From a virus: DNA of 31,697 nucleotides. Under the pieces are notes generated by a model that was given only the letters and a program-made list of their open reading frames with translations, was not told the origin of the DNA and did no database searches. This document shows positions 4,290 to 31,697 of the stretch, piece after piece (the first letter of the stretch is position 1; every line of letters begins with the position of its first letter). A program made the translations under genes and the position numbers. Where the stretch lies: IMG/VR virus record IMGVR_UViG_3300033993_002755, positions 1-31,697 of that record. One strand, given 5' to 3'.

Positions 4290-4316
4290 ACCAGAGTAAT
4301 ATATGAGGCCATGAAT

Positions 4317-5579
4317 ATGCGACATCACATACTGTTCTTGCTTTCCTTGCTGTCATTCGGTTGCACTGTTCCTCCGCGTGTACCTGGACTGCCTGATGCG
4401 TATGTGCTGCCCCCGCCTACATTAGACGGCTATGTTCCTCGGCCTGTATGCATACCTGGTATGGATAGCGGCATAGCGAATGACTTTTATCATTGCGGAA
4501 GCTGCGACAATGCTTGTCCAGCAGCGACTACGGATAGGTGTGACATAGACCGCTGCATGTGCGGAACGTCTGACCCCTGTGAATCTGCTACAGAGGAGTG
4601 CAGATTTGGCCTATGCAGAGCCGTTGATACTTCTGGGCAAAACTGTGAATTTGATAGGGAGTGTGGTGCGCCTGAGAGCGGGTTCGGTTGTATCTTAGGG
4701 CACTGTTCTAGGATCGAGTGCACCTTCGAGATTTGTGATGCACTAGACAACGACTGCGATGGAAACATTGATGGCGATGAGCGTGGCCCAGTAGCGCGGT
4801 ACTGTTACGATGACGATACTGTGGCCACAGGCACTGTGCTCTCACCCTGCAGGCGAGGAGTACAAGTTTGCTCTTACGGAGAATGGCAAGCCTGTGAAGG
4901 TGCTATTTCACCAGCTGACGAGGTAGGGCTATTTGCCTGCGACGGGTACGACAACAACTGCGACGGATGTGTAGACGGTACGCTAGTATCTAGTGCGTGT
5001 TCACCTGCGGTTAATACTACGTTCGATATTGTATTTGTTCTTGATACGTCGGGAAGCATGTCAGATGAGATTGGTACGATAGTGAGCGTAGTTAGCACGT
5101 TCTCTGGCATGTTCTCTGGAAACCCAAACTTTAAGTTTGCGATTGTACAGGCTCCAGAACCTGGCTACCTTCCTAGTTTACGAGAGTCTTCTTCTAACGT
5201 ACTTCTGCCCCTATCCTCTTACGAAGATTTTATAGCAGCTTTTGTCATTGACAGATTGCGAGGCTCGGTTGCTCCAGAGCCTACGTTGGACGTTATATGG
5301 GAGATTGGGAATGATACTCTGGACGTTGGGTGGAGAGACTCGTCTGCGAGAGTGATAATTCTCTTCACAGATGAGGAAGGCCAGAGTTACCGTCCCGTCA
5401 CCGTTACTGAGTCTGAAATGTGCGCACAGCTAACGAACGGCGAAGTATTCTACTACTTCACGGCACCGGAATACCGCGATGACTGGGACCTTTGCGGCAC
5501 TTACTTTCGGTTAAGAACTGATGAAGCCCAGGTATTAGCTGACCTTACAACAGTGGTTTCAGACCCCTGCAGAAGGTAG
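4317..5579 (+). CDS. lipoprotein with Cys-rich repeats and a von Willebrand A domain
   Basis: Probable secreted lipoprotein. It begins with a signal peptide ending in SFGC, an imperfect lipobox with Cys16 as the likely lipid site. The first half is Cys-rich and includes two CDxxDNxCDG repeats (CDALDNDCDG near residue 140, CDGYDNNCDG near 208), a calcium-type motif common in myxobacterial surface proteins. The second half is a von Willebrand A domain with the metal-site motif DTSGS near residue 243 and FTDEEG later. The start chosen has GAGG eight bases upstream; an ATG two codons earlier is too close to that site. Unusual cargo for a phage: possible roles are modifying the host surface, excluding other phages, or adhesion. 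Confidence 0.8.
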   Translation: MRHHILFLLSLLSFGCTVPPRVPGLPDAYVLPPPTLDGYVPRPVCIPGMDSGIANDFYHCGSCDNACPAATTDRCDIDRCMCGTSDPCESATEECRFGLCRAVDTSGQNCEFDRECGAPESGFGCILGHCSRIECTFEICDALDNDCDGNIDGDERGPVARYCYDDDTVATGTVLSPCRRGVQVCSYGEWQACEGAISPADEVGLFACDGYDNNCDGCVDGTLVSSACSPAVNTTFDIVFVLDTSGSMSDEIGTIVSVVSTFSGMFSGNPNFKFAIVQAPEPGYLPSLRESSSNVLLPLSSYEDFIAAFVIDRLRGSVAPEPTLDVIWEIGNDTLDVGWRDSSARVIILFTDEEGQSYRPVTVTESEMCAQLTNGEVFYYFTAPEYRDDWDLCGTYFRLRTDEAQVLADLTTVVSDPCRR

Positions 5580-17550: not shown

Positions 17551-17585
17551 AAAGCACGCTGCTAAAGTCCTGGCATGCGTGCTTT
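17551..17585 (+). promoter_or_regulatory. hairpin holding the patatin start codon
   Basis: AAAGCACGC and GCGTGCTTT form a perfect 9-bp stem, extended by TGC/GCA past a single bulged T, with a 10-base loop. The ATG of the patatin-like gene lies in the right arm, partly in the bulge. If the mRNA folds this way the start would be hidden, which suggests control of translation; it could also be an operator at DNA level. Confidence 0.5.
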
Positions 17586-18429
17586 GTGCCTTTCTGGCGG
17601 AGGAAGTAAAGGGGCGTACCAGGTAGGTGCGTTACGCAGGCTCGTTGAGCTTGAAGAACAGTACGACTTGTTTTCGGGGGTATCTGTCGGTGCTCTAAAC
17701 GCTACACTTTTGGTACAAAACCCAACCTTGGCTCCAGGCGTGTCAGTGTTATCGGACATCTGGGCTAGCCTAACTACTCGGGATGTTGCGCGTAAAAGGT
17801 TCTTAGGACCGTTAAGCCTGTTGTGGGCACCGTCTATCTACACTGCAGAGCCGCTAAAAGCCCTAGTTAACCGTAACCTAGACTACGACAAGTTACAGAA
17901 CAGTGGAAAGAAGCTGCAAATAGTAAGTGTGAACATGTGCACGGGTGCCACTGCGATATGTACGGAAAAAGCAGAAAGAAATCTGCTTGTAGACCACATA
18001 CTAGCATCCGCAGTTGCCCCTATACTTTACCCTCCAGTAATAATCAACGAAGAAGCACACACTGATGGGGGCATACGTCACGTTTCCCCGCTAGATGCTG
18101 CTATACACGCTGGAGCTTCACACATAGATTTGATTCTGTGTAGCGGCAAAGCACAATACAGGTGGGACGCTAAAGTAACCAGTATACTTTCTTACGCTGA
18201 TAGAGTAATTGATATCATGTTAGCTGAAATAGCTAACAACGACATAGTGATGACGCAGTTGCACAATAAATTAAGGCGCGCTGACTCTCAGCACGCCAAA
18301 AAAGAAGTGAGTTTAAGGATATGTAGACCAGCCAAGATGTTTGAAGTTGCTTCTTCTGAGTTTGACCCTGCGGTATCTCAGCGTTTGATGAAAGCAGGAT
18401 ACGAAGACGCGCTCATGGCGTTCGGCTGA
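17575..18429 (+). CDS. patatin-like phospholipase
   Basis: Predicted Ser-Asp dyad lipid hydrolase of 284 residues. The oxyanion motif GGGSKGAYQ (residues 8-16), the nucleophile elbow GVSVG (Ser37) and the catalytic Asp in TDGG (Asp164) are all present and correctly spaced, so it should be active. No signal peptide, so it probably acts inside the cell on the inner face of the membrane. Patatins in phages and defence systems degrade membrane lipids; here it could help lysis or alter the host membrane. It is transcribed alone between leftward genes, its start lies in a hairpin, and its 3' end overlaps the convergent methylase by 17 nt. Confidence 0.85.
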   Translation: MRALCLSGGGSKGAYQVGALRRLVELEEQYDLFSGVSVGALNATLLVQNPTLAPGVSVLSDIWASLTTRDVARKRFLGPLSLLWAPSIYTAEPLKALVNRNLDYDKLQNSGKKLQIVSVNMCTGATAICTEKAERNLLVDHILASAVAPILYPPVIINEEAHTDGGIRHVSPLDAAIHAGASHIDLILCSGKAQYRWDAKVTSILSYADRVIDIMLAEIANNDIVMTQLHNKLRRADSQHAKKEVSLRICRPAKMFEVASSEFDPAVSQRLMKAGYEDALMAFG

Positions 18430-22240: not shown

Positions 22241-22663
22241 CTATGCAATAACATCTCTCCTAAGTTCTAGAATACCTAGGATACTCTCATACTCAAGAGA
22301 GGTATTACAGTTGAGTAATGAGTTAGCTAGCTCTAAGGTTTCATTTGAGAGTGGGAGAAACAAGTGATGTAAAGCCTTGGGGATTCCCATCTCCTCCAAT
22401 ATTGCTTCACCGTCACCGTAACCGTTACCGTAACCTTTACCGTAACCTTTACCGTAACCGTCACCGTCACCGTCACCGTAACCGGTACCGTTACCGTAAC
22501 TGTAGTTACCGTTACCGGTACCGTTACCGTAACCGTTACCGTCACCGTCACCGTTACCGTAACCTTTACCGTTACCGTCACCGTTACCTTTACCGTAACC
22601 TTTGCCGTGACCGTCACCGTAACCGTCACCGTTACCGGCACCGTCCCCGTCTAAGGTAGACAT
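22241..22663 (-). CDS. Gly-X repeat protein with conserved C-terminal domain, copy 1
   Basis: Member of the repeat family of this window. MSTLDG is followed by about 40 Gly-X pairs (X is Asn, Asp, Tyr, Lys, His or Thr), then the common C-terminal domain from EAILEEMGIPKAL to SILGILELRRDV. The tract includes the aromatic interruption NYSYGNG. It lies downstream of the HerA-like ATPase gene and, unlike the other complete copies, has no GGAGAGA before its start: the ATG sits inside a perfect 12-base palindrome (GACATATATGTC), with only GAAAG upstream. The Gly-polar part is expected to be disordered or fibrous. Function unknown. Confidence 0.75.
   Translation of the reverse strand: MSTLDGDGAGNGDGYGDGHGKGYGKGNGDGNGKGYGNGDGDGNGYGNGTGNGNYSYGNGTGYGDGDGDGYGKGYGKGYGNGYGDGEAILEEMGIPKALHHLFLPLSNETLELANSLLNCNTSLEYESILGILELRRDVIA
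22409..22650 (-). repeat. (GGTNAC)n hexanucleotide tract, copy 1
   Basis: About 40 near-perfect six-base units, in frame with the repeat protein. The variable base is mostly the first base of every second codon. No stop occurs in any frame of either strand over most of the tract. Confidence 0.9.
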
Positions 22664-22692
22664 ATATGTCTTTCAATACAGAGATGAGTGTA

Positions 22693-24030
22693 TTACGCGT
22701 TCTTCGCCTGATATACGTCAATAGCACGCGTTGCGTCTTCTACTTTGGCCCACGCAAAGTCAGATTGTTGACGCTCAAACTCTGCCCTTGCCTCTTCAAG
22801 TTTCAACTTTAGCAGTTGAAGACTCATGATTTGCTCTGCAACTCCAGTGGAAAACAGCTTCTTAATCTCAATAGGACTCATTGGGCCACGAAGCTCGGCG
22901 CTACAGTCTCGTGACGTGAAAATGGCCGTTCCTGTGGGACGGACCAACAGGAATTGTCGTGGTTGCAAACGTGCGATACTAGATTCTACAACCCGTGAAT
23001 CCTGTGGAGTGGCAGCGCAGATTCCGTTGACTACTCTTGCTCTATCATTCTGTGTCTGCAGGCGTCCAACCAACCAGGTCTGCGCGTTCGACATACCTTT
23101 GTAATCCAAGTCCATTGGATTCTGAGAGCAAATGACGATACCCAATCCATGGGCGCGTGCTTGCTTGAGCATGGTCAGCAGGGGCTTTTTAGTTGGTGGG
23201 TTTGCTGGGTGTGGGGGCATCACTCCGTACATCTCATCCAGTAATAGGCACATTTTGAGATCCGCTGTGCCGGGTTGCTTGCGCATCCAAGAAAGCATTT
23301 CTTCAAGAAACATGCTGATGGCAAAGTTTCGCTCTGCGTCATCGACTAGGTGTGCAACGGAGTAGATTACGACGGGTACTTTTCCAGGCGCGCACTCAAG
23401 CAACCGTGTCACGTCAATGGACACGCCTTCCCTCCATGCTTGGAACGAGGGCGCAGCGAGAAGATTGTTCAGTTTCGCCATCAACTTTCCACGAGACTGA
23501 GCTGGGAACACTTCGTCCAGCGGCAGCATACCCAGGTACTCAAACGGCGGCTCTGCGATGTCGTTTAGGACATCGACGATAGTGCACGGCTTGTTGCCCT
23601 TTAGCCTCCACTGAATGATGTTTGCTAGAAATGTATGCTGTGTAGATGTTACGTCTGCTTTGGTTCCCATGAGCTTGAACAGCGTGGTTACCGTAGACGT
23701 GATTCGATCTTCATTTTCGATGCCTGAAAAGATGTTTACAGCCTCACCGTGATTTCCCCCTGGGGTCAGGAAGCGCAGTGCCATACGTTCGCGTACTTCC
23801 TCAGGCTGCAAAGCTACGTTTGCGATGTCTCCTTTGATGTCACACAGAAATACTGGGATGTTATTTCTAACAAGCTCCTCAACCATTCCGATAATCAAGC
23901 CTGACTTACCGGAGCCTGTGGCACCACAAATTACCGCATGTGTAGTTAACGCAGCTGCCTTCAAGGCAACATTGTGTGTTGCTCCATCAGGAGACGTCCT
24001 AGATCCCAGATTGATAATAGCGTCGCTCAC
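22693..24030 (-). CDS. HerA/DUF87-like P-loop ATPase
   Basis: Predicted hexameric DNA-translocase-type ATPase, 445 residues. Walker A is GATGSGKSG (36-44), followed by a second conserved stretch VFLCDIKGDIANV (60-72). Walker B is LLLDEMYG (262-269); SQNPMDLDYKGMSNAQTWLVGRLQT (302-326) includes sensor-like residues and IARLQPRQFLLVRPTG the C-terminal beta part. These match HerA/VirB4-like and YjgR-type ATPases. The C terminus is a charged helix that could be a coiled coil. The GTG start overlaps the stop of repeat-family copy 2, and copy 1 follows after 29 bases, so the ATPase is embedded in the repeat-protein cluster. No HerA-partner NurA was recognised. Confidence 0.85.
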   Translation of the reverse strand: MSDAIINLGSRTSPDGATHNVALKAAALTTHAVICGATGSGKSGLIIGMVEELVRNNIPVFLCDIKGDIANVALQPEEVRERMALRFLTPGGNHGEAVNIFSGIENEDRITSTVTTLFKLMGTKADVTSTQHTFLANIIQWRLKGNKPCTIVDVLNDIAEPPFEYLGMLPLDEVFPAQSRGKLMAKLNNLLAAPSFQAWREGVSIDVTRLLECAPGKVPVVIYSVAHLVDDAERNFAISMFLEEMLSWMRKQPGTADLKMCLLLDEMYGVMPPHPANPPTKKPLLTMLKQARAHGLGIVICSQNPMDLDYKGMSNAQTWLVGRLQTQNDRARVVNGICAATPQDSRVVESSIARLQPRQFLLVRPTGTAIFTSRDCSAELRGPMSPIEIKKLFSTGVAEQIMSLQLLKLKLEEARAEFERQQSDFAWAKVEDATRAIDVYQAKNA

Positions 24031-24476
24031 TTCGTACCTCTTTGTGAATTAATTAGTTGTTCGTTTCTAAGCTCTAGAATACCTAGGATGCTCTCATACT
24101 CAAGAGAGGTATTACAACTAAGTAGTGCGTTAGCCAGCTCTAAGGTTTCGTTGGAGAGTGGGAGAAACAAGTGCTTTAGAGCATTGGGGATTCCCATCTC
24201 CTCCAATATTGCTTCACCATAACCGTCACCGTAACCGTCACCGTTACCGTAACCGTTACCGTCACCGTCACCGTTACCGTCACCGTCACCGTTACCTTTA
24301 CCGTAACCGTAACCGTTACCGTTACCGTAACTGTAGTTACCGTTACCGGTACCGTTACCGTTACCGTAACCGTTACCGTTACCGTGACCGTTACCGTTAC
24401 CGTTACCGTTACCGTTACCGTTACCGTGACCGTTACCGTTACCGTAACCGTTACCGTAACCGTCTAGCGTGGACAT
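24027..24476 (-). CDS. Gly-X repeat protein with conserved C-terminal domain, copy 2
   Basis: Longest copy, 149 residues. It starts MSTLDGYGNG, has a tract dominated by Asn with Tyr, Asp and His, the aromatic interruption NYSYGNG, and the common C-terminal domain. After SILGILELR the sequence does not end but adds NEQLINSQRGTK, overlapping the GTG of the ATPase gene. That overlap couples this copy to the ATPase. GGAGAG in the last codons of copy 3 provides its ribosome binding site. Confidence 0.75.
   Translation of the reverse strand: MSTLDGYGNGYGNGNGHGNGNGNGNGNGNGHGNGNGYGNGNGTGNGNYSYGNGNGYGYGKGNGDGDGNGDGDGNGYGNGDGYGDGYGEAILEEMGIPNALKHLFLPLSNETLELANALLSCNTSLEYESILGILELRNEQLINSQRGTK
24216..24463 (-). 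repeat. (GGTNAC)n hexanucleotide tract, copy 2
   Basis: About 41 six-base units in frame with the repeat protein, with Asn (AAC) the most frequent variable codon. Confidence 0.9.
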
Positions 24477-24897
24477 ACGTCTCTCTCCTAAGTTCTAGGA
24501 TACCTAGGATGCTCTCATACTCAAGAGAGGTATTACATTTGAGTAGGGTGTTAGCTAGCTCTAAGGTTTCGTTGGAGAGTGGGAGAAACAAGTGCTTTAG
24601 AGCATTGGGGATTCCCATCTCCTCCAATACTGCTTCACCGTTACCGTCACCGTAACCGTCACCGTAACCGTTACCGTAACCGTTACCGTTACCGTAACCG
24701 TTACCGTAACCGTTACCTTTACCGTAACCGTTACCGTAACCGCTGCCGTTACCGTAACCGTTACCGTCACCGTAACCGTTACCGTAACTGTAGTTACCGT
24801 TACCGGTACCGTTACCGTTACCGTAACCGTTACCGTCACCGTCACCGTAACCGTTACCGTTGCCGTTACCGTTACCGTTACCTTCTAGCGTAGACAT
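24451..24897 (-). CDS. Gly-X repeat protein with conserved C-terminal domain, copy 3
   Basis: 148 residues. MSTLEGNGNG start, a tract with Asn, Tyr, Asp, Lys and Ser at the variable positions and the interruption NYSYGNG, then EAVLEEMGIPNALKHLF (Val in place of the usual Ile) and SILGILELRRE, with an added tail TYVHARRLR. It overlaps copy 2 by 26 nt. It is the first copy of its cluster in the direction of transcription; the gene before it is an unrelated hypothetical. AGGAGAG stands before its start. Confidence 0.75.
   Translation of the reverse strand: MSTLEGNGNGNGNGNGYGDGDGNGYGNGNGTGNGNYSYGNGYGDGNGYGNGSGYGNGYGKGNGYGNGYGNGNGYGNGYGDGYGDGNGEAVLEEMGIPNALKHLFLPLSNETLELANTLLKCNTSLEYESILGILELRRETYVHARRLR
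24637..24884 (-). repeat. (GGTNAC)n hexanucleotide tract, copy 3
   Basis: About 41 six-base units in frame, with alternating Asn and Tyr codons over long parts. Adjacent Asn and Tyr units form small inverted repeats (GTAAC-G-GTTAC). Confidence 0.9.
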
Positions 24898-24938
24898 ACG
24901 TCTCTCCTAAGCTCCATACTCAGGGAAGTAGGACATCT

Positions 24939-25403
24939 TCACGCGTCATACATCTTCAGCTTGGTGGCGTCCCCTACAGGCTGGAATACTTGAAGGAACG
25001 CATGCAACGGAAGCTCTGAAACCTCAGCCTCAACGTCCCCTAAAGGGATGAAGTGCACGCTATACACATACACGTTGTCTTCTACGTCTACCGTCAAGTC
25101 AGTAACTAAGAAGTGCCCTTCCAGTTCTTCTGGTCCATGGCGGTATGCCCACTCTACTCCAACAACTGCTTCTAAAAGCTTTGTTGCTACTTCTTTATGT
25201 ATGTTCAATCCGTCCTGTGCTGTCGGTGCACTGACTGCTGCGCGCTCGCTGTACCAGGGGATTACCACTTCTTCAATAATGACAATCGCCGCGCTCTCTC
25301 GAATGCGGCGAAGTGATTTCAACATAGCTGTTATGATCATGTTATCCTTCATCCTCTCCAGATGAGCTTTTATGTCCAGTGGCTTCGGCCAACGCCTGGG
25401 CAC
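24939..25403 (-). CDS. hypothetical protein, 154 aa
   Basis: No family recognised. An N-terminal helical part (LDIKAHLERMKDNMIITAMLKSLRRIRES) is followed by an alpha-beta region with VVIPWYSERAA and a C-terminal beta-rich half (GHFLVTDLTVDVEDNVYVYSVHFIPLG). The start is uncertain: the GTG used here gives the longest form, but ATG codons 17 and 21 codons later have AGG-type sites nearby. It is transcribed just before repeat-family copy 3. Confidence 0.55.
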   Translation of the reverse strand: MPRRWPKPLDIKAHLERMKDNMIITAMLKSLRRIRESAAIVIIEEVVIPWYSERAAVSAPTAQDGLNIHKEVATKLLEAVVGVEWAYRHGPEELEGHFLVTDLTVDVEDNVYVYSVHFIPLGDVEAEVSELPLHAFLQVFQPVGDATKLKMYDA

Positions 25404-25420
25404 TTGCCTGGTCTAGCCTA

Positions 25421-25672
25421 CTAACCTTCCTCAATAAACACAGGTCCCCAAGGTGTTGACAGTAGCACTTCACCAGTATCGGAGCTGGCAAACTTATACT
25501 TAGTCCATTCGTACTTCCTAGAGTTAGCCCATTCAGCGATTAGCATGTCTAGAGTTGCCCTGGTAACTGAAACTCGCTGAATTGGTTTATCTGCGATTTC
25601 GTTAACCAAGGCAAGCCAAGCCACGAACTCATTCGCTGTCGAGAACGAGGTCTTCTGAAGTAGGGTCGTCAT
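25421..25672 (-). CDS. hypothetical protein, 83 aa
   Basis: No family recognised. The N-terminal half is helical (ANEFVAWLALVNEIADKPIQRVSVTRATLDMLIAEWANS), the end beta-like (EVLLSTPWGPVFIEEG). It starts inside the end of the probable small terminase gene, with a 44-nt overlap in another frame. The C-terminal pattern, with a hydrophobic strand ending in Pro-Trp-Gly, is often seen in small phage proteins of unknown role. Confidence 0.55.
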   Translation of the reverse strand: MTTLLQKTSFSTANEFVAWLALVNEIADKPIQRVSVTRATLDMLIAEWANSRKYEWTKYKFASSDTGEVLLSTPWGPVFIEEG

Positions 25673-26417
25673 TCGCGGTCTCTGTGTCTACCACCTCTGC
25701 GTCTTCGATGCCAGGATCAGGTGTTGGTTCTTCCAACGCAACCAACTGTTTAGCTACGATAGCATCTCCAAGGGATTTCTTTGCATCTCCGTTCTTCCAC
25801 GCCTTGATGAACGGCGACACCTCCAAAGTATGCTTGACGTTGATCTCAGCCTTCTTGATCAAGCCCAAGTCCATCAAAAGCTTTGTGTGCTTTTCTCGCG
25901 CCTGCATCACCACTGCTAAGGATTTAGCCTTGTCACTAACTTCCTCTGCTGAGTGGTACAGTTCCCAGGCTCTAAATTCAATTTCTTCGTAAAGAGATGC
26001 AGTGCTGCCTACTACTTCTTCTTGATTTACGTTTTTACCCCTGGATGCTTGCCATTCTTTGATTCTTTTTAGTTCTTTACTAATCCATACTTGGCTCGTG
26101 CCAATGACGTTAGCTATCGCTTCTTGTGATAGGCCGCGCATACGTAGCCTAGCAATCATCTTCTGACGCTCAGTTAGCCCAGTAAACGGGTCTTCAATTT
26201 CCTTAGGAGAATAAGGAATCTGCAACTTGTCGGCGGGCACGTCCGGTACGTCCCCAGCTATTAGCTGAGTTAGTGCCTTTTGCTCTGCGATCTTCTCGTC
26301 TTCCTCGATTTGTTTTTGCAACTTTTCTTGCAGTTGTATCTTTGTCAGCTTGGTGTTCTCTGGTACACCAAGCCGCTTAATCAATTCCTCACGTTCTTTG
26401 TCCTTTGTTCTAGCCAT
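25629..26417 (-). CDS. probable terminase small subunit or HTH DNA-binding protein
   Basis: 262 residues. The N terminus is charged and coiled-coil-like. The middle has LTERQKMIARLRMRGLSQEAIANVIGTSQVWISKELKRI, a clear helix-turn-helix of the sigma-region-4 or terminase-small-subunit kind. A helical region (ELYHSAEEVSDKAKSLAVVMQAREKHTKLLMDLGLI) follows, and the tail is acidic. This order fits small terminases, which bind DNA through an N-terminal helix-turn-helix and oligomerise by helices. A transcription regulator is the alternative. The ATG chosen has GGAG five bases upstream. Its distance and opposite strand from the large terminase are unusual. Confidence 0.6.
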   Translation of the reverse strand: MARTKDKEREELIKRLGVPENTKLTKIQLQEKLQKQIEEDEKIAEQKALTQLIAGDVPDVPADKLQIPYSPKEIEDPFTGLTERQKMIARLRMRGLSQEAIANVIGTSQVWISKELKRIKEWQASRGKNVNQEEVVGSTASLYEEIEFRAWELYHSAEEVSDKAKSLAVVMQAREKHTKLLMDLGLIKKAEINVKHTLEVSPFIKAWKNGDAKKSLGDAIVAKQLVALEEPTPDPGIEDAEVVDTETANDDPTSEDLVLDSE

Positions 26418-26430
26418 GATACTCCGTACG

Positions 26431-26469
26431 CATAAAAGACATGAGGGAGAGCCTTGTGCAGACCCTCCC
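26431..26469 (-). terminator. intrinsic-type terminator hairpin
   Basis: Reading leftward, GGGAGGGTC pairs with GGCTCTCCC (two wobble pairs) around a 7-base loop, and the tail TCATGTCTTTTATG follows. It lies directly after the stop of the 62-residue gene and before the small-terminase-like gene, so it may reduce read-through between the two. Confidence 0.45.
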
Positions 26470-26475
26470 CCATAA

Positions 26476-26664
26476 TCAGCCACCATGCCCTAGCGCTGCT
26501 CGATCTTCGAAGACGAAAGTCTTCTTATACGCGTCGAACCACACCTTAGCTGCCCTATAGAATCTATCTAGCTTTTCAAACTCCATGTCATAGATAGCTG
26601 TCTTGATGTTCTTGGGTAGGTCGGCACACACTCCATTACCGTCCTTCACAAGGACTTTACTCAT
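26476..26664 (-). CDS. hypothetical protein, 62 aa
   Basis: No family recognised. It starts MSKVLVKDGNGV and is mostly helical (IKTAIYDMEFEKLDRFYRAAKVWFDAYKK), ending in a short Gly/His tail. A strong GGAGGGG lies before the ATG, which overlaps the end of the gene upstream by 8 nt. A terminator-like hairpin follows its stop. Confidence 0.6.
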   Translation of the reverse strand: MSKVLVKDGNGVCADLPKNIKTAIYDMEFEKLDRFYRAAKVWFDAYKKTFVFEDRAALGHGG

Positions 26665-26890
26665 TAGGTCCCCTCCACATGAAGAATGCGCTGCTAACTG
26701 CGTACTCGACGAACTCTCCGACTCGGTAGGCAAATACTTCCTCTTTCGTAGAAGTCTTTGCTGCGTTTCGTGCCAGGTCGTCACAGGACTTGATGATACT
26801 CTCTAGCGGCTCGTCGTGGTTCACGACCACATCGTGTCCAGTGGGAACGAAAACACCCTGCTCTCGGCGCAAAATACTGTGCGTGTACAT
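26657..26890 (-). CDS. hypothetical protein, 77 aa
   Basis: No family recognised. The N-terminal part is beta-like (GVFVPTGHDVVVNHDEP), the rest helical (LESIIKSCDDLARNAAKTS, then VFAYRVGEFVEYAVSSAFFMW). GAGG five bases before the ATG supports the start. It is placed in a series of four short leftward genes after a good promoter, and overlaps the next gene by 8 nt. Confidence 0.6.
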   Translation of the reverse strand: MYTHSILRREQGVFVPTGHDVVVNHDEPLESIIKSCDDLARNAAKTSTKEEVFAYRVGEFVEYAVSSAFFMWRGPNE

Positions 26891-26896
26891 TTTTCC

Positions 26897-27229
26897 TCAC
26901 TCAATGACAGTGGTATTAGACGAAGCGTCAAACGTTGCGTTGTTGAACTCTACAGCGTCAGTTTCAGTGGAAAGCTTCTTCGGTCGTCCGGTCAACCATG
27001 TCCTCGGCTCAGCCTTCAGCTTACACAGGTAGTTAATCACTCGTCCCTCTTCCTCCGACTTACGGCTGCGGATCTGGTACCACTTTCCTTCAAAGCAGAA
27101 GGTAGATGATCCGTTCACCTTCACAATATCGGCAAGAGTTTGTTCATAGGCAATCTGTGACTTCTTTACTGCTTCCTCCGCTGCAAAAGAATTTACAATC
27201 AGGTCGGTGATAGACGTGTTAGTTTCCAT
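26897..27229 (-). CDS. hypothetical protein, 110 aa
   Basis: No family recognised. A helical N terminus (ITDLIVNSFAAEEAVKKSQIAYEQTLADIV) is followed by a beta-hairpin pattern (SSTFCFEGKWYQIRSRKSEE) and a region with TWLTGRPKKL, then an acidic and Thr-rich end. AAAGG eight bases before the ATG is its ribosome binding site. It is the first gene after the best promoter of the leftward block. Confidence 0.65.
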   Translation of the reverse strand: METNTSITDLIVNSFAAEEAVKKSQIAYEQTLADIVKVNGSSTFCFEGKWYQIRSRKSEEEGRVINYLCKLKAEPRTWLTGRPKKLSTETDAVEFNNATFDASSNTTVIE

Positions 27230-27278
27230 TTTACTTTTCCTTTACTTATTGTTACTGGGTAATACTCAACCCATTCGT

Positions 27279-27307
27279 ACTGTACTGTCACTGGCTATAG
27301 TTGTCAA
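27279..27307 (-). promoter_or_regulatory. sigma-70-type promoter in the leftward block
   Basis: Reading leftward, a perfect TTGACA, a 17-base spacer and TACAGT (4 of 6) lie in the 88-base gap between two genes, about 50 bases before the start of the 110-residue gene. It probably drives the genes from there towards the small terminase. Confidence 0.55.
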
Positions 27308-27317
27308 CAAGAAATCG

Positions 27318-27788
27318 CTACTCGTTTTCCTTGTCGTCTTTCTCTTCTTCTTCCTCAGGTTCTGTCTCTTCTTCTTCCTCTGGAGCTTCCACAACTACGA
27401 GGTTAAAGAAACCGGGTGTTTGTCTCAAGTCCCAGCCTACCTCTAAAAGCTTTTCTTCATCAAGAACTGCGAAGTCTTCAAGCGCCCAAGAGTAGCTCCA
27501 CAGAGGAGACTTCTTCTTGAGTAGCGTTATGTGTAGTTGCTTTCCATCTTCTCCGAGAATTGGTTCGCGCGACAAAATTCCAGACGTAACAAGCAAGTCA
27601 GCAATGCTGTGACTGAACGCAGTATTTGGGTCACCTAGTAGCTTTACTGGAGTAATATACCCTGTGTTGGTTGGGTATTCTGCACAAAGCAGGATCTTGG
27701 CATTCCTTTCCGCAACATATCTTTTTGTATGCTCTGACATGTCGCCAACGAACGCGCACGGTTGCGTGATCATGATATGCATGGTCAT
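27318..27788 (-). CDS. hypothetical protein with acidic C-terminal tail, 156 aa
   Basis: No family recognised. The first 120 residues look like an alpha-beta fold (ITQPCAFVGDM, AKILLCAEYPTNTGYITP, LHITLLKKKSPLWSY, FFNLVVVEAP). It ends in a run of Glu, Asp and Lys of about 25 residues (EEEEETEPEEEEEKDDKENE), probably disordered and able to mimic nucleic acid or bind basic proteins. Its start overlaps the lipoprotein stop (ATGA). Ocr/gam-like DNA mimicry is conceivable, but only the tail suggests it. Confidence 0.6.
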   Translation of the reverse strand: MTMHIMITQPCAFVGDMSEHTKRYVAERNAKILLCAEYPTNTGYITPVKLLGDPNTAFSHSIADLLVTSGILSREPILGEDGKQLHITLLKKKSPLWSYSWALEDFAVLDEEKLLEVGWDLRQTPGFFNLVVVEAPEEEEETEPEEEEEKDDKENE

Positions 27789-28336
27789 CCCTCTACCCAG
27801 TGAATGCTACAGTTTTCAACACCTGAAACACAGGACAAATCAACCTGCCCCGACGCAGCTACTAGCATAGTCAGCAGGCAGTCATACCTCACACCTCCAC
27901 AGGTAACTGGAAAGCGCACACCCCGGCTACCCACTCCAACCGGCTCCCAATCTCCGCTGAAATAGAGCGGGATAAACACGCTATCGCAGTATTCAGCCAG
28001 TACCTGACCGGTTGCCGTGCAGGTGGAAATCCTTGCTTGTTGTAGATTAACAACTCTGGCATTCACCAAGGGACCGACGCAAGTGTTTCTTTCAGCGCGG
28101 TAGGTTCTTGCTTCGTTGAGTGATAGTCCTGGGCATTCAGGAAATCCTCCAGTGTCGTCGGAAATGACGACATTACGTGCGTCTTCGCCCACTAAACCAG
28201 CAGCATCTTCCATTGTGCTTGCGGTGGCTCCGTCGTCCCTCGTGATGCCTGCATCGCTGTCAATTGTAACGTACACGATGCGCTCCGTACAACCAGTCAA
28301 GCTTGCACACAGTCCTAGAATAATGAAAGGCTTCAT
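27785..28336 (-). CDS. predicted lipoprotein, 183 aa
   Basis: A signal peptide (MKPFIILGLCASLTGC) with a good lipobox LTGC predicts a lipid anchor on Cys16. It is followed by an acidic, Asp-rich low-complexity linker typical of surface lipoproteins in the Myxococcota, then a domain with several cysteines (NTCVGPLVNARVV, ISTCTATGQVLAEYC, FPVTCGGVRYDCLLTM, LSCVSGVENC), probably disulphide bonded. A GGAGA ribosome binding site precedes the ATG. A second phage-encoded lipoprotein in the window, perhaps for superinfection exclusion or spanin-like lysis, but no family was recognised. Confidence 0.7.
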   Translation of the reverse strand: MKPFIILGLCASLTGCTERIVYVTIDSDAGITRDDGATASTMEDAAGLVGEDARNVVISDDTGGFPECPGLSLNEARTYRAERNTCVGPLVNARVVNLQQARISTCTATGQVLAEYCDSVFIPLYFSGDWEPVGVGSRGVRFPVTCGGVRYDCLLTMLVAASGQVDLSCVSGVENCSIHWVEG

Positions 28337-28614
28337 GCTCCGGCTCTCCTTGTATAGACCTCGGGATTGTTTTCTCTATGAAACTTCTCGATCTCGTCTA
28401 CCTGAGAAATCTCCTGTTCTCGTGTGCGAGGATAAATCGTGGTGATGTACAAGTGCTTGGGCAGAGCGTTTACCACTGGATATGTGGTGAATTTGTCTAG
28501 TGACGTATCGTAATATACGAATAGCGGGTCTGTGCCCATCATTCCGTCTGGTGTGGCAAGCCGACCACACTTGACAGTGTCAGTCTCAACCTGTTTTGGT
28601 GTATAGCGCTTCAT
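28333..28614 (-). CDS. hypothetical protein, 93 aa
   Basis: No family recognised. The N terminus is basic (MKRYTPKQVE), the middle has beta-like segments (PLFVYYDTSLDKFTTYPVV, HLYITTIYPRTREQE) and the end is charged. Both its start and its stop overlap neighbours by 4 nt, so it is translated together with the zinc-finger protein gene and the lipoprotein gene. Confidence 0.6.
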   Translation of the reverse strand: MKRYTPKQVETDTVKCGRLATPDGMMGTDPLFVYYDTSLDKFTTYPVVNALPKHLYITTIYPRTREQEISQVDEIEKFHRENNPEVYTRRAGA

Positions 28615-29396
28615 GAATTTTCCTTTCTAAGCTCAAGTATCGCTAGAATGGAGTCTTTAGTTTCTTGCGTTCCATCCAAGAACTCATTTAGCGTGTAAAG
28701 TGCTTCTTCCCCTGGCGAACCATACAACAAGTCCAACAACGCACTGATGCCCTCTGGCGCCCAGCATTCTTCTTCATATGTACGACAGGTAGGGTTCCAG
28801 GCGGTGCGAGCGTTTGTAATGCCTAGGCGGTCTAGAAACTCTTCTTTAGCTTCCTCCAAAGATCGATCGATTTTTCTAAACGTTTTCCAATCCATCCAGT
28901 CTACGTGTGCCTTAAGTTCCTTTGCTTTGTCATTCATGGCTGACAGAAACACGCTTTGTAGGTGGGTGTGCAGCTTTTCGAATCCCATTTCTCGCATCGA
29001 AAATCTGCGAAGCTCTGATTGGCATGCAGGAGAAGCTTGATGCTTCTTTACGCCACGATGAGTTACTAGCTGATTACATACTTTGCACGGGGAGACGTTG
29101 TGCACCTGAACTAAGTGCGCGTACAAAGCTCGCATAGTTGGCTGCACGTTACTGGTGCTGTGTGAGCGGTACACACGTACTACGCCTTCTTCTTCAATCT
29201 GCCAAGAAGACTTGTGCGTCTTCAAGCCCTCGATGCGCTCATCTAGTTGTGGGCACATCTTGCAGTGGACTACTGCTTTTCGGCCAGTGTAGGCCTGCTT
29301 AGTAGGGTCCCAAGCTCCATACACGGAATCAACCGTAAACCTAGACAAGACTTGCGACTGCTGCGCGTATGTCAGTTCACAATTTACAGTGTTCAT
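28611..29396 (-). CDS. zinc-finger protein sharing the repeat-family C-terminal domain
   Basis: 261 residues. The N-terminal half has a CxxC knuckle (HCKMCPQL) and a long His region, then a C2HC finger: CKVCNQLVTH...KKHQASPAC (C-x2-C-x11-H-x5-C). The middle is helical. The C-terminal 48 residues (GISALLDLLYG ... SILAILELRKENS) align with the tail of the Gly-X repeat proteins: similar spacing of Leu, Asn and Glu, and SIL.ILELR at the same end position. This shared tail links it to the repeat family. AGGAAAATATG supports the start. It probably binds nucleic acid or protein through the finger and a common partner through the tail. Confidence 0.7.
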   Translation of the reverse strand: MNTVNCELTYAQQSQVLSRFTVDSVYGAWDPTKQAYTGRKAVVHCKMCPQLDERIEGLKTHKSSWQIEEEGVVRVYRSHSTSNVQPTMRALYAHLVQVHNVSPCKVCNQLVTHRGVKKHQASPACQSELRRFSMREMGFEKLHTHLQSVFLSAMNDKAKELKAHVDWMDWKTFRKIDRSLEEAKEEFLDRLGITNARTAWNPTCRTYEEECWAPEGISALLDLLYGSPGEEALYTLNEFLDGTQETKDSILAILELRKENS

Positions 29397-29409
29397 ATTT
29401 TCCTACGAT

Positions 29410-30357
29410 TCACAATGCGCGAAAGAAAGCTGACGCGTGCTTTGGGTTATTAATCATGCGCAAGCCAGTTGGGCTGATAGCCTTGCACACAAGCTTAACA
29501 ACGTCTAGCACACGCTCCTTGTGTTTCATGCCTCGCGTATGCTTGCCCATTCGCTCATATGATTCTCCGCAGAAGACACACTTACTTCCTGGAATGGAGA
29601 ACTGCTCGTTGCGCACAATGCTGGTGTGGTTGTTCTCGGCCCACCGACGAACTGCGCTTTCATCAACAAGCCATTTCTTTTGTTCGGGTTCTCTAACTGC
29701 GAATGTTGCGGTGTCTAGTGGTGTCGTTAAGTGCAGGTAATTGCCGCTGGGCAAAACGAATCCATTGTGAGTGAAGCTGTAAGCATGCGTAACGTTGCGT
29801 ACCTCAAGGACTCTCGGAACGAGTGTTACGTGCTTATGAAAATGGCTAACCCTGTGAGAGTGCTTGCCCACGGAGGTAACACTGGGTAGCGTCATTACGC
29901 TTCGTGTGAGCTTATCTACTAGCCTTTGTAGTGCAACAACCTCCATAGGACGTTCAGCAGCCTCCTTACTCACCCTGCTGTTGTGAACCTCGATCATGTG
30001 CTCTTTAGTGGTATTGAATGCTGCGCGCATCAAAGGGCTAGCTCCATGCAGTTCCCCCAACTCGTTTCGATACGAGCTAATTGATTGTCCCCGCAAGGAC
30101 TTTACACGTCCCAACGCTGCACGGAACTTAGCAGTGACTGAGAAACAGGTTTCACCTCCCATTTCATGGAACGCTTGAACCGCTTCTCCATGCTTATGCT
30201 CACATTCCGAACCAACGTATAGCACGTTCTGCTTTTTATCGAAGATTACAACAGTATAGTGGGTACCGGATTCTCCATTGTGTGCCTTGGCGAAGGCACA
30301 CGGAACTCTGTCTACGACTACTGAGTGTGCGTTTGGGTTGTTGAAAAAATTTGACAT
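29410..30357 (-). CDS. C2H2 zinc-finger-containing protein, 315 aa
   Basis: No family recognised for the main part. The N-terminal 80 residues are beta-like (HYTVVIFDKKQNVLYVGSE, then TCFSVTAKFRAALGRVKS). A long helical and His-rich section follows. Near residue 265 lies a single finger, CVFCGESYERMGKHTRGMKH (C-x2-C-x9-H-x5-H), with the eukaryotic-like C2H2 pattern, after which a helix ends the protein. GAGG before the ATG supports the start. It stands between the second repeat cluster and the zinc-finger protein that carries the shared tail, so the three may act together. Nucleic-acid binding is likely; catalysis is not evident. Confidence 0.65.
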   Translation of the reverse strand: MSNFFNNPNAHSVVVDRVPCAFAKAHNGESGTHYTVVIFDKKQNVLYVGSECEHKHGEAVQAFHEMGGETCFSVTAKFRAALGRVKSLRGQSISSYRNELGELHGASPLMRAAFNTTKEHMIEVHNSRVSKEAAERPMEVVALQRLVDKLTRSVMTLPSVTSVGKHSHRVSHFHKHVTLVPRVLEVRNVTHAYSFTHNGFVLPSGNYLHLTTPLDTATFAVREPEQKKWLVDESAVRRWAENNHTSIVRNEQFSIPGSKCVFCGESYERMGKHTRGMKHKERVLDVVKLVCKAISPTGLRMINNPKHASAFFRAL

Positions 30358-30381
30358 CTCACACCTCGGTTCAGTTCGTTG

Positions 30382-30798
30382 CTAATCGTTTCTAAGTTCT
30401 AGGATACCTAGGATGCTCTCATACTCAAGAGAGGTATTACATTTGAGTAGGGTGTTAGCTAGCTCTAAGCTTTCGTTGGAGAGTGGGAGAAACAAGTGAT
30501 GTAAAGCCTTGGGGATTCCCATCTCCTCCAATATTGCTTCACCGTTACCGTTACCGGTACCGGTACCGTTACCGTGACCGTTACCGTTACTGGTACCGTA
30601 ACCGTTACCGTAACCGTCACCGTTACCGTAACCGTAACCGTCACCGTTACCGTTACCGTTACCGGTACCGGTACCATTACCATAAATGTAACCGTTACCG
30701 TTACCGTTACCGGTACCGTGACCGTTGCCGTAACCGTTGCCGTTACCGTTGCCGTTACCGGTACCGTCACCGTCACCGTTACCTTCTAGCATAGACAT
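30382..30798 (-). CDS. Gly-X repeat protein with conserved C-terminal domain, copy 4
   Basis: 138 residues. It starts MSMLEG, the only copy with Met at position three. The tract is rich in Asn and Thr, the aromatic interruption reads YIYGNG, and the C-terminal domain (EAILEEMGIPKALHHLF ... SILGILELRND) matches copy 1 in its middle. It overlaps copy 5 by 13 nt. It is the last copy of this cluster before the zinc-finger genes, and its 3' end no longer carries the GGAGAG found in the other copies of this array. Confidence 0.75.
   Translation of the reverse strand: MSMLEGNGDGDGTGNGNGNGNGYGNGHGTGNGNGNGYIYGNGTGTGNGNGNGDGYGYGNGDGYGNGYGTSNGNGHGNGTGTGNGNGEAILEEMGIPKALHHLFLPLSNESLELANTLLKCNTSLEYESILGILELRND
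30541..30784 (-). repeat. (GGTNAC)n hexanucleotide tract, copy 4
   Basis: About 40 six-base units in frame. Thr codons (ACC) create runs of the palindrome GGTACC here, more than in the other copies. Confidence 0.9.
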
Positions 30799-31190
30799 AC
30801 ATCTCTCCTAAGTTCTAGGATACCTAGGATACTCTCATACTCAAGAGAGGTATTAGAACTAAGTAGGGTGTTAGCTAGCTCTAAGCTTTCGTTGGAGAGT
30901 GGGAGAAACAAGTGCTTTAGAGCCTTAGGGATTCCCATCTCCTCCAATATTGCTTCACCGTCACCGTTACCGTTACCGTTACCGTAACCGTTACCGTCAC
31001 CGTCACCGTAACCGTCACCGTAACCGTTACCGTTACCGTCACCGTTACCGTAACCGTAACCGTAACCGTAACCGGTACCGTTACCGTTACCGATACCGTG
31101 ACCGTTGCCGTAACCGTTACCGTCACCGTCACCGTCACCGTAACCGTTACCGGTACCGTTACCGTCACCGTGACCTTCTAGCGTGGACAT
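30786..31190 (-). CDS. Gly-X repeat protein with conserved C-terminal domain, copy 5
   Basis: 134 residues, the shortest complete copy. MSTLEGHGDG start; at the place of the aromatic interruption it has an unbroken YGYGYGYGNG run, so the motif is present without a phase break. The C-terminal domain reads EAILEEMGIPKALKHLF ... SILGILELRRDVCLC. The ribosome binding site (AGGAGAGATG) lies in the last codons of copy 6, which overlaps it by 13 nt. Confidence 0.75.
   Translation of the reverse strand: MSTLEGHGDGNGTGNGYGDGDGDGNGYGNGHGIGNGNGTGYGYGYGYGNGDGNGNGYGDGYGDGDGNGYGNGNGNGDGEAILEEMGIPKALKHLFLPLSNESLELANTLLSSNTSLEYESILGILELRRDVCLC
30957..31176 (-). repeat. (GGTNAC)n hexanucleotide tract, copy 5
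   Basis: About 36-37 six-base units in frame, the shortest of the complete tracts. Confidence 0.9.
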
Positions 31191-31600
31191 ACATCTCTCC
31201 TAAGTTCCAGGATACCTAAGATGCTCTCATACTCAAGAGAGGTATTACAGTTGAGTAGGGTGTTAGCTAGCTCTAAGCTTTCGTTGGAGAGTGGGAGAAA
31301 CAAGTGCTTTAGAGCCTTAGGGATTCCCATCTCCTCCAATATTGCTTCACCGTTACCGTCACCGTTACCGTCACCGTCACCGTCACCGTAACCGCTACCG
31401 TAACCGTTACCGTCACCGTTACCTTTACCGTAACCGTTACCGTCACCGTTACCGTCACCGTTACCGGTACCGTTACCGTCACCGTAACCGTCACCGTCAC
31501 CGTAACCGGTACCGTTACCATAAACGTAACCGTAACCGTTACCGGTACCGTTACCGTCACCGTGACCGTTACCTTTACCTTTACCTTCTAGCGTAGACAT
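31178..31600 (-). CDS. Gly-X repeat protein with conserved C-terminal domain, copy 6
   Basis: 140 residues. MSTLEGKGKG start with several Lys codons, aromatic interruption YVYGNG, then EAILEEMGIPKALKHLF ... SILGILELRRDVCPR. Copy 7 overlaps its start by 13 nt and supplies its ribosome binding site. Asp-rich in the second half of the tract, so more acidic than copies 2 and 3. Same unknown function as the rest of the family. Confidence 0.75.
   Translation of the reverse strand: MSTLEGKGKGNGHGDGNGTGNGYGYVYGNGTGYGDGDGYGDGNGTGNGDGNGDGNGYGKGNGDGNGYGSGYGDGDGDGNGDGNGEAILEEMGIPKALKHLFLPLSNESLELANTLLNCNTSLEYESILGILELRRDVCPR
31349..31586 (-). repeat. (GGTNAC)n hexanucleotide tract, copy 6
   Basis: About 40 six-base units in frame, with Asp (GAC) and Asn codons dominant. 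Confidence 0.9.
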
Positions 31601-31697
31601 ACATCTCTCCTAAGCTCTAGAATACCTAGGATACTCTCATACTCAAGAGAGGTATTACAACTGAGTAGGGTGTTAGCTAGCTCTAAGGTTTCGTTGG
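31588..31697 (-). CDS. Gly-X repeat family member, copy 7 (C-terminal part only)
   Basis: The window ends inside a further copy. The visible part encodes the last 35 residues, from NETLELANTLL to SILGILELRRDVCLR, almost identical to copies 5 and 6. Its stop lies inside the first codons of copy 6. The array therefore goes on beyond this window to the right. Confidence 0.75.
   Translation of the reverse strand, partial: NETLELANTLLSCNTSLEYESILGILELRRDVCLR

Follow-up and report, generated by a model that had tools for sequence, protein, structure and literature searches.

What small phage proteins with a long Gly-X tract do, and why one phage should encode them several times over, is the question raised by the stretch of DNA analysed here (the window), which comes from a freshwater bacterial virus and spans positions 1–31,697 of the IMG/VR virus record IMGVR_UViG_3300033993_002755. 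The window contains six complete Gly-X genes and one that is cut off, all on the minus strand. The plan of these genes consists of a six-residue start (MSTL(E/D)G in five copies, MSMLEG in one), a tract of 36–41 Gly-X pairs (72–81 residues, 48–50% Gly) in which Asn, Asp and Tyr predominate at X, and a 50-residue C-terminal tail. Every window copy gives a profile E-value of ~1e-35 to 1e-37, far beyond chance, and has an intact reading frame, in agreement with the first-pass annotation, which had counted six complete genes and one partial gene of shared plan. Our best explanation, which we put forward tentatively, is that Gly-X proteins accompany a phage Sm-like ring as its low-complexity partners, probably in an RNA–protein assembly; the window genes would then form a branch of this class that has multiplied and gained a helical tail.

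Purifying selection acts on the tail, with values across nine copies of 0.20 for synonymous (pS) and 0.04 for non-synonymous (pN) differences, and the tail is thus selected as a protein. In all six complete copies, 43 of its first 50 residues are identical, which makes the 'invariant' C-terminal domain of the first-pass annotation nearly but not strictly so. The contrast drawn there between near-identical 3' parts and differing tracts corresponds to a mean DNA identity among window copies of 0.93 in the tail versus 0.81 in the tract. AlphaFold2 predicts that the tail monomer forms a compact four-helix domain (pLDDT 88, pTM 0.66), from a shallow alignment and with two of the five models poorer. 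No already described family accounts for this domain, which lacks a significant match in Pfam, PHROGs, INPHARED cultured phages, plasmids, the PDB or BFVD folds. A match of the window genes to Pfam TrAA12 (PF22807; 22–28.5 bits against a curated cut-off of 30.9) covers the tract only and was set aside as a match of composition, as were keratin-like matches. Contigs L025 and L029, retrieved by a pattern search for the end of the tail, were taken as chance matches in another small protein. The data support a real multi-copy family with a private folded C-terminal domain and a low-complexity tract, and are compatible with a disordered or condensate-like tract for which the C-terminal domain would serve as an anchor.

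Many viral contigs contain Gly-X tract genes, most of which have a characteristic neighbour. Searching viral contigs for ten G-[NDYH] codon pairs returned short proteins with Y/D/N or Y/D/S tracts, besides a few long low-complexity proteins, and 70 loci among the matches listed were examined. A DUF6948-like gene (PF22253) stands beside 56 of these 70, including the contig L151/L153 described below; in ~51 it lies directly upstream on the same strand, mostly overlapping the Gly-X gene, with one fusion (L045). The Gly-X ATG is typically located 19 nt within the DUF6948 open reading frame (ORF), with the same frame offset in 62 of 64 cases. A reciprocal search from DUF6948-like proteins identified 383 relatives, and a Gly-X tract is present ≤600 nt downstream in 74 of the 80 best, as compared with 6 of 410 control windows; the former rate may somewhat overstate that of the DUF6948 family at large because the seed alignment was built from paired loci, and many of the contigs may be related. 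In the remaining six loci, the contig ends at that point in four and the tract, judged by eye, is interrupted in two. The two DUF6948 groups used are mutually related (hhalign probability 91%). All four cultured or complete phages examined contain the pair; a first DUF6948 query gave no match to cultured phages, and a more typical member used as query did. The Gly-X/DUF6948 gene pair in phages is well supported by these counts.

We found no paper in the open-licence literature that names DUF6948 or describes a Gly-X tract in phages, and the paired Gly-X genes, for instance those of Pectobacterium phage Koroua and Caudoviricetes sp. MW202898, are annotated as hypothetical proteins only. Such genes have been overlooked in two published phages: downstream of DUF6948, the tract carries no annotation in Iodobacter phage PhiPLPE (L156, 1150–1470) and is annotated in the wrong frame (MAMAMALAMAL...) in Chlorobiaceae phage CV-1-33 (L157, 2780–3025). 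The uncharacterised family PHROG 18306 unites both parts in one profile, with Gly-X tracts at 54–136 and the DUF6948-like neighbour protein at 153–240, but it lacks the tail of the window genes and its parts follow a different order. Folded C-terminal additions are rare among Gly-X proteins, occurring in only a handful of others, none of them tail-like; the helical C-terminus of L082 was found to be unrelated. Another modular use of the tract is seen at L081 (2–556, minus strand), where a DUF7666 domain is followed by a Gly-X tract and the start of an IDGVPT-type domain, which also follows tracts in L040, L069 and L096.

The window genes resemble the DUF6948-paired genes in their small size and their alternating Gly-X tract, with X being Tyr, Asp, Asn or Ser. 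They differ in having a 50-residue helical tail and many copies, whereas the paired genes mostly end at the tract, are mostly single copy and overlap DUF6948; the window starts overlap no DUF6948 ORF and are preceded by each other, by other genes or by the record end. The link between the two rests on a single contig, since no DUF6948 was found in the available part of the window phage. Among 84,980 species genomes, the tail gene was matched once, in a 6.8-kb, probably viral contig of a proteobacterial metagenome-assembled genome (L151/L153), the other genes of which have no BLASTP similarity to the window phage. This contig encodes a Gly-X gene with a tail 91% identical to that of the window, after which a second tandem copy begins; in the first, an apparent extra base near the start codon can be read from the sequence. 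Upstream lie a MoxR/vWA pair, a DUF6948 gene and a tRNA-Lys. The DUF6948 gene scores above Pfam's cut-off and ends ~120 nt before the Gly-X gene, with the tRNA-Lys in between. The L153 tail falls nearly inside the diversity of the window phage's own copies (pS 0.24), and has a G+C content of 0.41 in surroundings of 0.56. Judged by these sequences, the tail gene has been transferred between dissimilar contigs. Counting this contig, a MoxR/CobS-type ATPase and vWA pair adjoins Gly-X genes in three phage contigs that differ in other respects (L010, 6102–9710; L151, 1107–4004; L083, 5005–7306), which may be chance. The family phrog_1314, labelled HNH endonuclease, matches the DUF2201/vWA metallopeptidase-like protein at L151 2256–4004, and its label seems wrong.

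The DUF6948-like partner is predicted to have an Sm/LSm fold. Its model (pLDDT 88, from an alignment of 51 sequences) was compared with the PDB using Foldseek, and all top 50 matches are Sm/LSm-type, with probabilities of 0.98–1.00 and 3by7 as the best. Sm-like cores with Gly-rich tails are already known: Hfq of Acinetobacter baumannii has a repetitive glycine-rich C-terminal domain (PMC5663733), and the C-terminal region of Hfq is described as disordered in solution (PMC10590398). The phage module likewise joins a putative Sm-like core with a Gly-rich low-complexity part, but has the latter encoded by an overlapping gene of its own (with a fusion in L045), and the link of DUF6948 to Sm proteins is by predicted fold only. 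The Sm-like Rho inhibitor Rof/YaeO (PMC11018626), also a small Sm-like protein, may illustrate how a phage protein could interfere with RNA metabolism in the host; it has no Gly-X partner. We did not find the separate-gene arrangement, the obligate pairing or the tailed multi-copy branch described in the open-licence literature.

These features suggest how the module may work. The first gene would supply an Sm-like ring that binds nucleic acid, probably RNA, and the second gene, of which the window genes would be a multiplied, tailed branch, a separately made low-complexity 'tail' for that ring. Within the flexible tract, tyrosines may act as weak stickers and Gly, Asn and Asp as spacers, such that ring and tract together would build a multivalent ribonucleoprotein assembly in early or middle infection. 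In the window phage, the predicted four-helix domain would add docking or self-association and may replace or supplement contact with the partner, and tandem amplification would raise the dose. More doubtful is the fuller version of this proposal, in which hundreds of phages would encode a two-gene ribonucleoprotein system, an Sm-like ring and a separately translated Gly-Tyr/Asn/Asp protein jointly forming an RNA condensate or regulator, and in the window phage the second gene would have become a multi-copy family that recombines and carries a helical domain for docking.

Several observations weigh against a partnership with an Sm-like ring. No DUF6948 match was found, sensitive search included, in the ~69 kb available of the window phage, which do not cover sequence past the window's right end. 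The window genes begin with MSTLEG, and one large paired group has the consensus MxKRTINFEDSQNSYG; given this difference in the N-termini, a shared origin with the paired class is unproven, and the likeness may be convergent. The Foldseek E-value for the Sm match is 1.3e-3 at best, and sequence searches of the PDB with the DUF6948-like protein gave no significant match to Sm proteins, so the Sm assignment concerns the fold only and is not proof of RNA binding. The top-scoring neighbour families of Gly-X genes encode DNA recombination and replication functions, with which a DNA role fits equally well.

The last point underlies the rival that fares best, although we regard it as unlikely: the small barrel protein and its tract partner would act in DNA recombination or replication, gathering single-stranded DNA, an annealing protein and single-stranded DNA-binding protein (SSB) in a manner comparable to that of the Gly-rich SSB linker. 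RecE, RecT/SSAP, Erf, NinG, a clamp loader and DnaB are among the products encoded near Gly-X genes in other phages, and the cultured examples lie near recE/bet, Erf and SSB, ERF, or a Holliday resolvase and XerD. Sm-like folds are, moreover, able to bind DNA. However, early phage regions are rich in such genes and the neighbour tally has no matched background, the 'HNH endonuclease' phrog_1314 among the neighbour families is really a vWA protein, and the fold matches of the partner are RNA-binding Sm/LSm proteins. The partner's fold favours RNA, and the gene neighbours favour DNA. The neighbours, mostly DNA-metabolism or uncharacterised genes and not virion genes, also speak against the 'variant display' proposed in the first-pass annotation, as do close relatives that differ by gain and loss of units and copies.

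We judge it quite unlikely that convergence produced the window family. Under this reading, tracts of Gly-X form readily and the function would reside in the helical tail, which might, for instance, multimerise or bind the host; the tract would be a spacer and have no relation to DUF6948 modules. The lack of DUF6948 in the known part of the window phage, the divergent N-terminus and the location of conservation in the tail all fit this account. So does a possible second context of the tail domain in a zinc-finger-like protein (28611–29396, minus strand), whose last ~45 residues (GISALLDLLYG...DSILAILELRKE) are tail-like, with a BLASTP E-value of 2e-4 in one comparison and an equally good score in 1 of 5000 shuffles, uncorrected for the number of proteins examined. 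Against convergence, the tail gene in L153 follows a DUF6948 gene at ~120 nt, and DUF6948 was found in none of the 288 other genomes sampled from the phylum of that metagenome-assembled genome.

How the copies are arranged bears on a further possibility, that a recombination-prone cassette spreads within and between phages via its repeats and tails with little gain from copy number. At the right end of the window, the partial gene (31588–31697, the last 35 codons comprising the tail end) is truncated by the record end and followed by copies at 31178–31600 (140 aa; tail 31190–31348), 30786–31190 (134 aa; tail 30798–30956), which overlaps both adjoining copies, and 30382–30798 (138 aa; tail 30385–30540), the last of its cluster, ending in LELRND. 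The other cluster begins at 24451–24897 (148 aa; tail 24481–24636), continues with a 26-nt overlap at 24027–24476 (149 aa; tail 24060–24215; end LELRNE...), and is interrupted by a HerA/FtsK-like ATPase gene (22693–24030, minus strand), which is not a family member, before an isolated copy at 22241–22663 (140 aa; tail 22250–22408). Internal copies overlap through AGGAGAGA, which codes for the last Arg-Arg-(Asp/Glu) of one copy and at the same time is the Shine-Dalgarno sequence (ribosome-binding site) of the next; copies at a cluster end carry LELRN instead. The isolated copy retains the internal ending AGGAGAGATGT, probably a remnant of a lost downstream copy, and the DNA upstream of 24897, GAGTATGGAGCTTAGGAGAGACGT, resembles a shortened tail and looks like the deletion remnant of a former one. 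Both features imply that Gly-X copies have probably been lost.

Outside the window, a third cluster is flanked by a CobT-like vWA gene and a MazG gene. Joining overlapping, near-identical records shows that the 31.7-kb record is a fragment of a phage of at least ~69 kb: L008 is identical to part of the window record, L010 overlaps its left end at 100% identity, and the region preceding it recurs in near-identical form in L009, L011 and L012. The two clusters of the first-pass annotation therefore exist, but one is split by the ATPase gene, a third accompanies them, and the 'compact phage genome' was a fragment. The third cluster contains three copies in L009 and two in L010 and L011, although these records are 99% identical, and the first L011 copy is a hybrid of the head of L009 copy 1 and the tail of L009 copy 2, as would be expected from unequal recombination. 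Copy number thus varies by recombination. Together with the remnants of lost copies and the transfer into a dissimilar contig of foreign G+C content, these findings are what selfish or neutral amplification predicts. We nevertheless consider it very unlikely, given that all tails are under purifying selection, that no window copy has lost its frame, that single-copy Gly-X genes are retained with DUF6948 across many phages, and that the cassette contains no mobility gene.

The tract DNA is unusually uniform. In the window, 226 of 234 Gly codons are GGT, and diversity is 0.60 at the first base of the X codon versus 0.10 at third bases; 63 of 64 other tracts follow the same pattern, with a variable first X base (0.57) and nearly fixed third bases of the Gly and X codons (0.09). 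The uniform codon varies between phages and departs from genome usage (P down to ~1e-32), which rules out codon usage as its cause and indicates that the amino-acid mix is kept and the DNA homogenised. The window hexamer is GGTNAC, and those found elsewhere are GGCNAC, GGANAT, GGANAC, GGGNAC and GGCNAT. A DNA hairpin or palindrome was dropped as an explanation on account of these differences. A diversity-generating retroelement would be expected to change both A of AAC and was dropped as well, because the second X base is mostly A (diversity ~0.14) and the first varies; no search for a reverse transcriptase was made. Repeated blocks are in excess across the class (376 four-unit words versus 227 in shuffles), which argues for turnover of units. 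The six window tracts have no such excess (9 versus 7.7) and a near-random unit order, and slippage alone was therefore rejected. The simplest reading of the tract sequences is frequent gain and loss of units that homogenises the DNA, combined with selection that retains a mix of Tyr, Asp and Asn or Ser; the near-random order in the window remains partly unexplained by it. It is highly improbable that the GGTNAC array itself is functional, serving as an array of binding sites, a decoy or a hot spot for recombination, and that the protein is incidental: only one base per hexamer varies freely and GTNAC is a small palindrome, but phages share the amino-acid mix and no DNA motif, and the start codon, the overlap and the tail show conservation of the protein-coding kind.

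The joined records, as read from their sequences, belong to a tailed phage with baseplate-type proteins, a DNA polymerase, RecA and primase-like proteins, and the window encodes a GpA-type terminase, near which lies a patatin-like phospholipase (17575–18429, plus strand). A Cys-rich lipoprotein-like protein (4311–5579, plus strand) combines DxDxDG repeats with a vWA-like part, a style common in large Deltaproteobacteria-type genomes that hints at the host. A helicase-like protein (L022, 3–3044, minus strand, continued in L010, 3–1367) contains two putative inteins, at the Walker A motif and the DECH box, with HINT-type starts (CLHPDTPVML, CVDEYSVIST) and ends (HNT, HNC).

If the pairing has the meaning proposed here, encoding the low-complexity tail of an Hfq/LSm-like ring as a separate gene is common among phages. 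Such modules would provide a simple, testable system for the reorganisation of RNA or nucleic acid by bacterial viruses. They would also supply low-complexity proteins in minimal form, as a natural series of two-letter repeats of controlled composition, which the window would extend with variants that differ in copy number and tract order and carry a helical domain as an addition.

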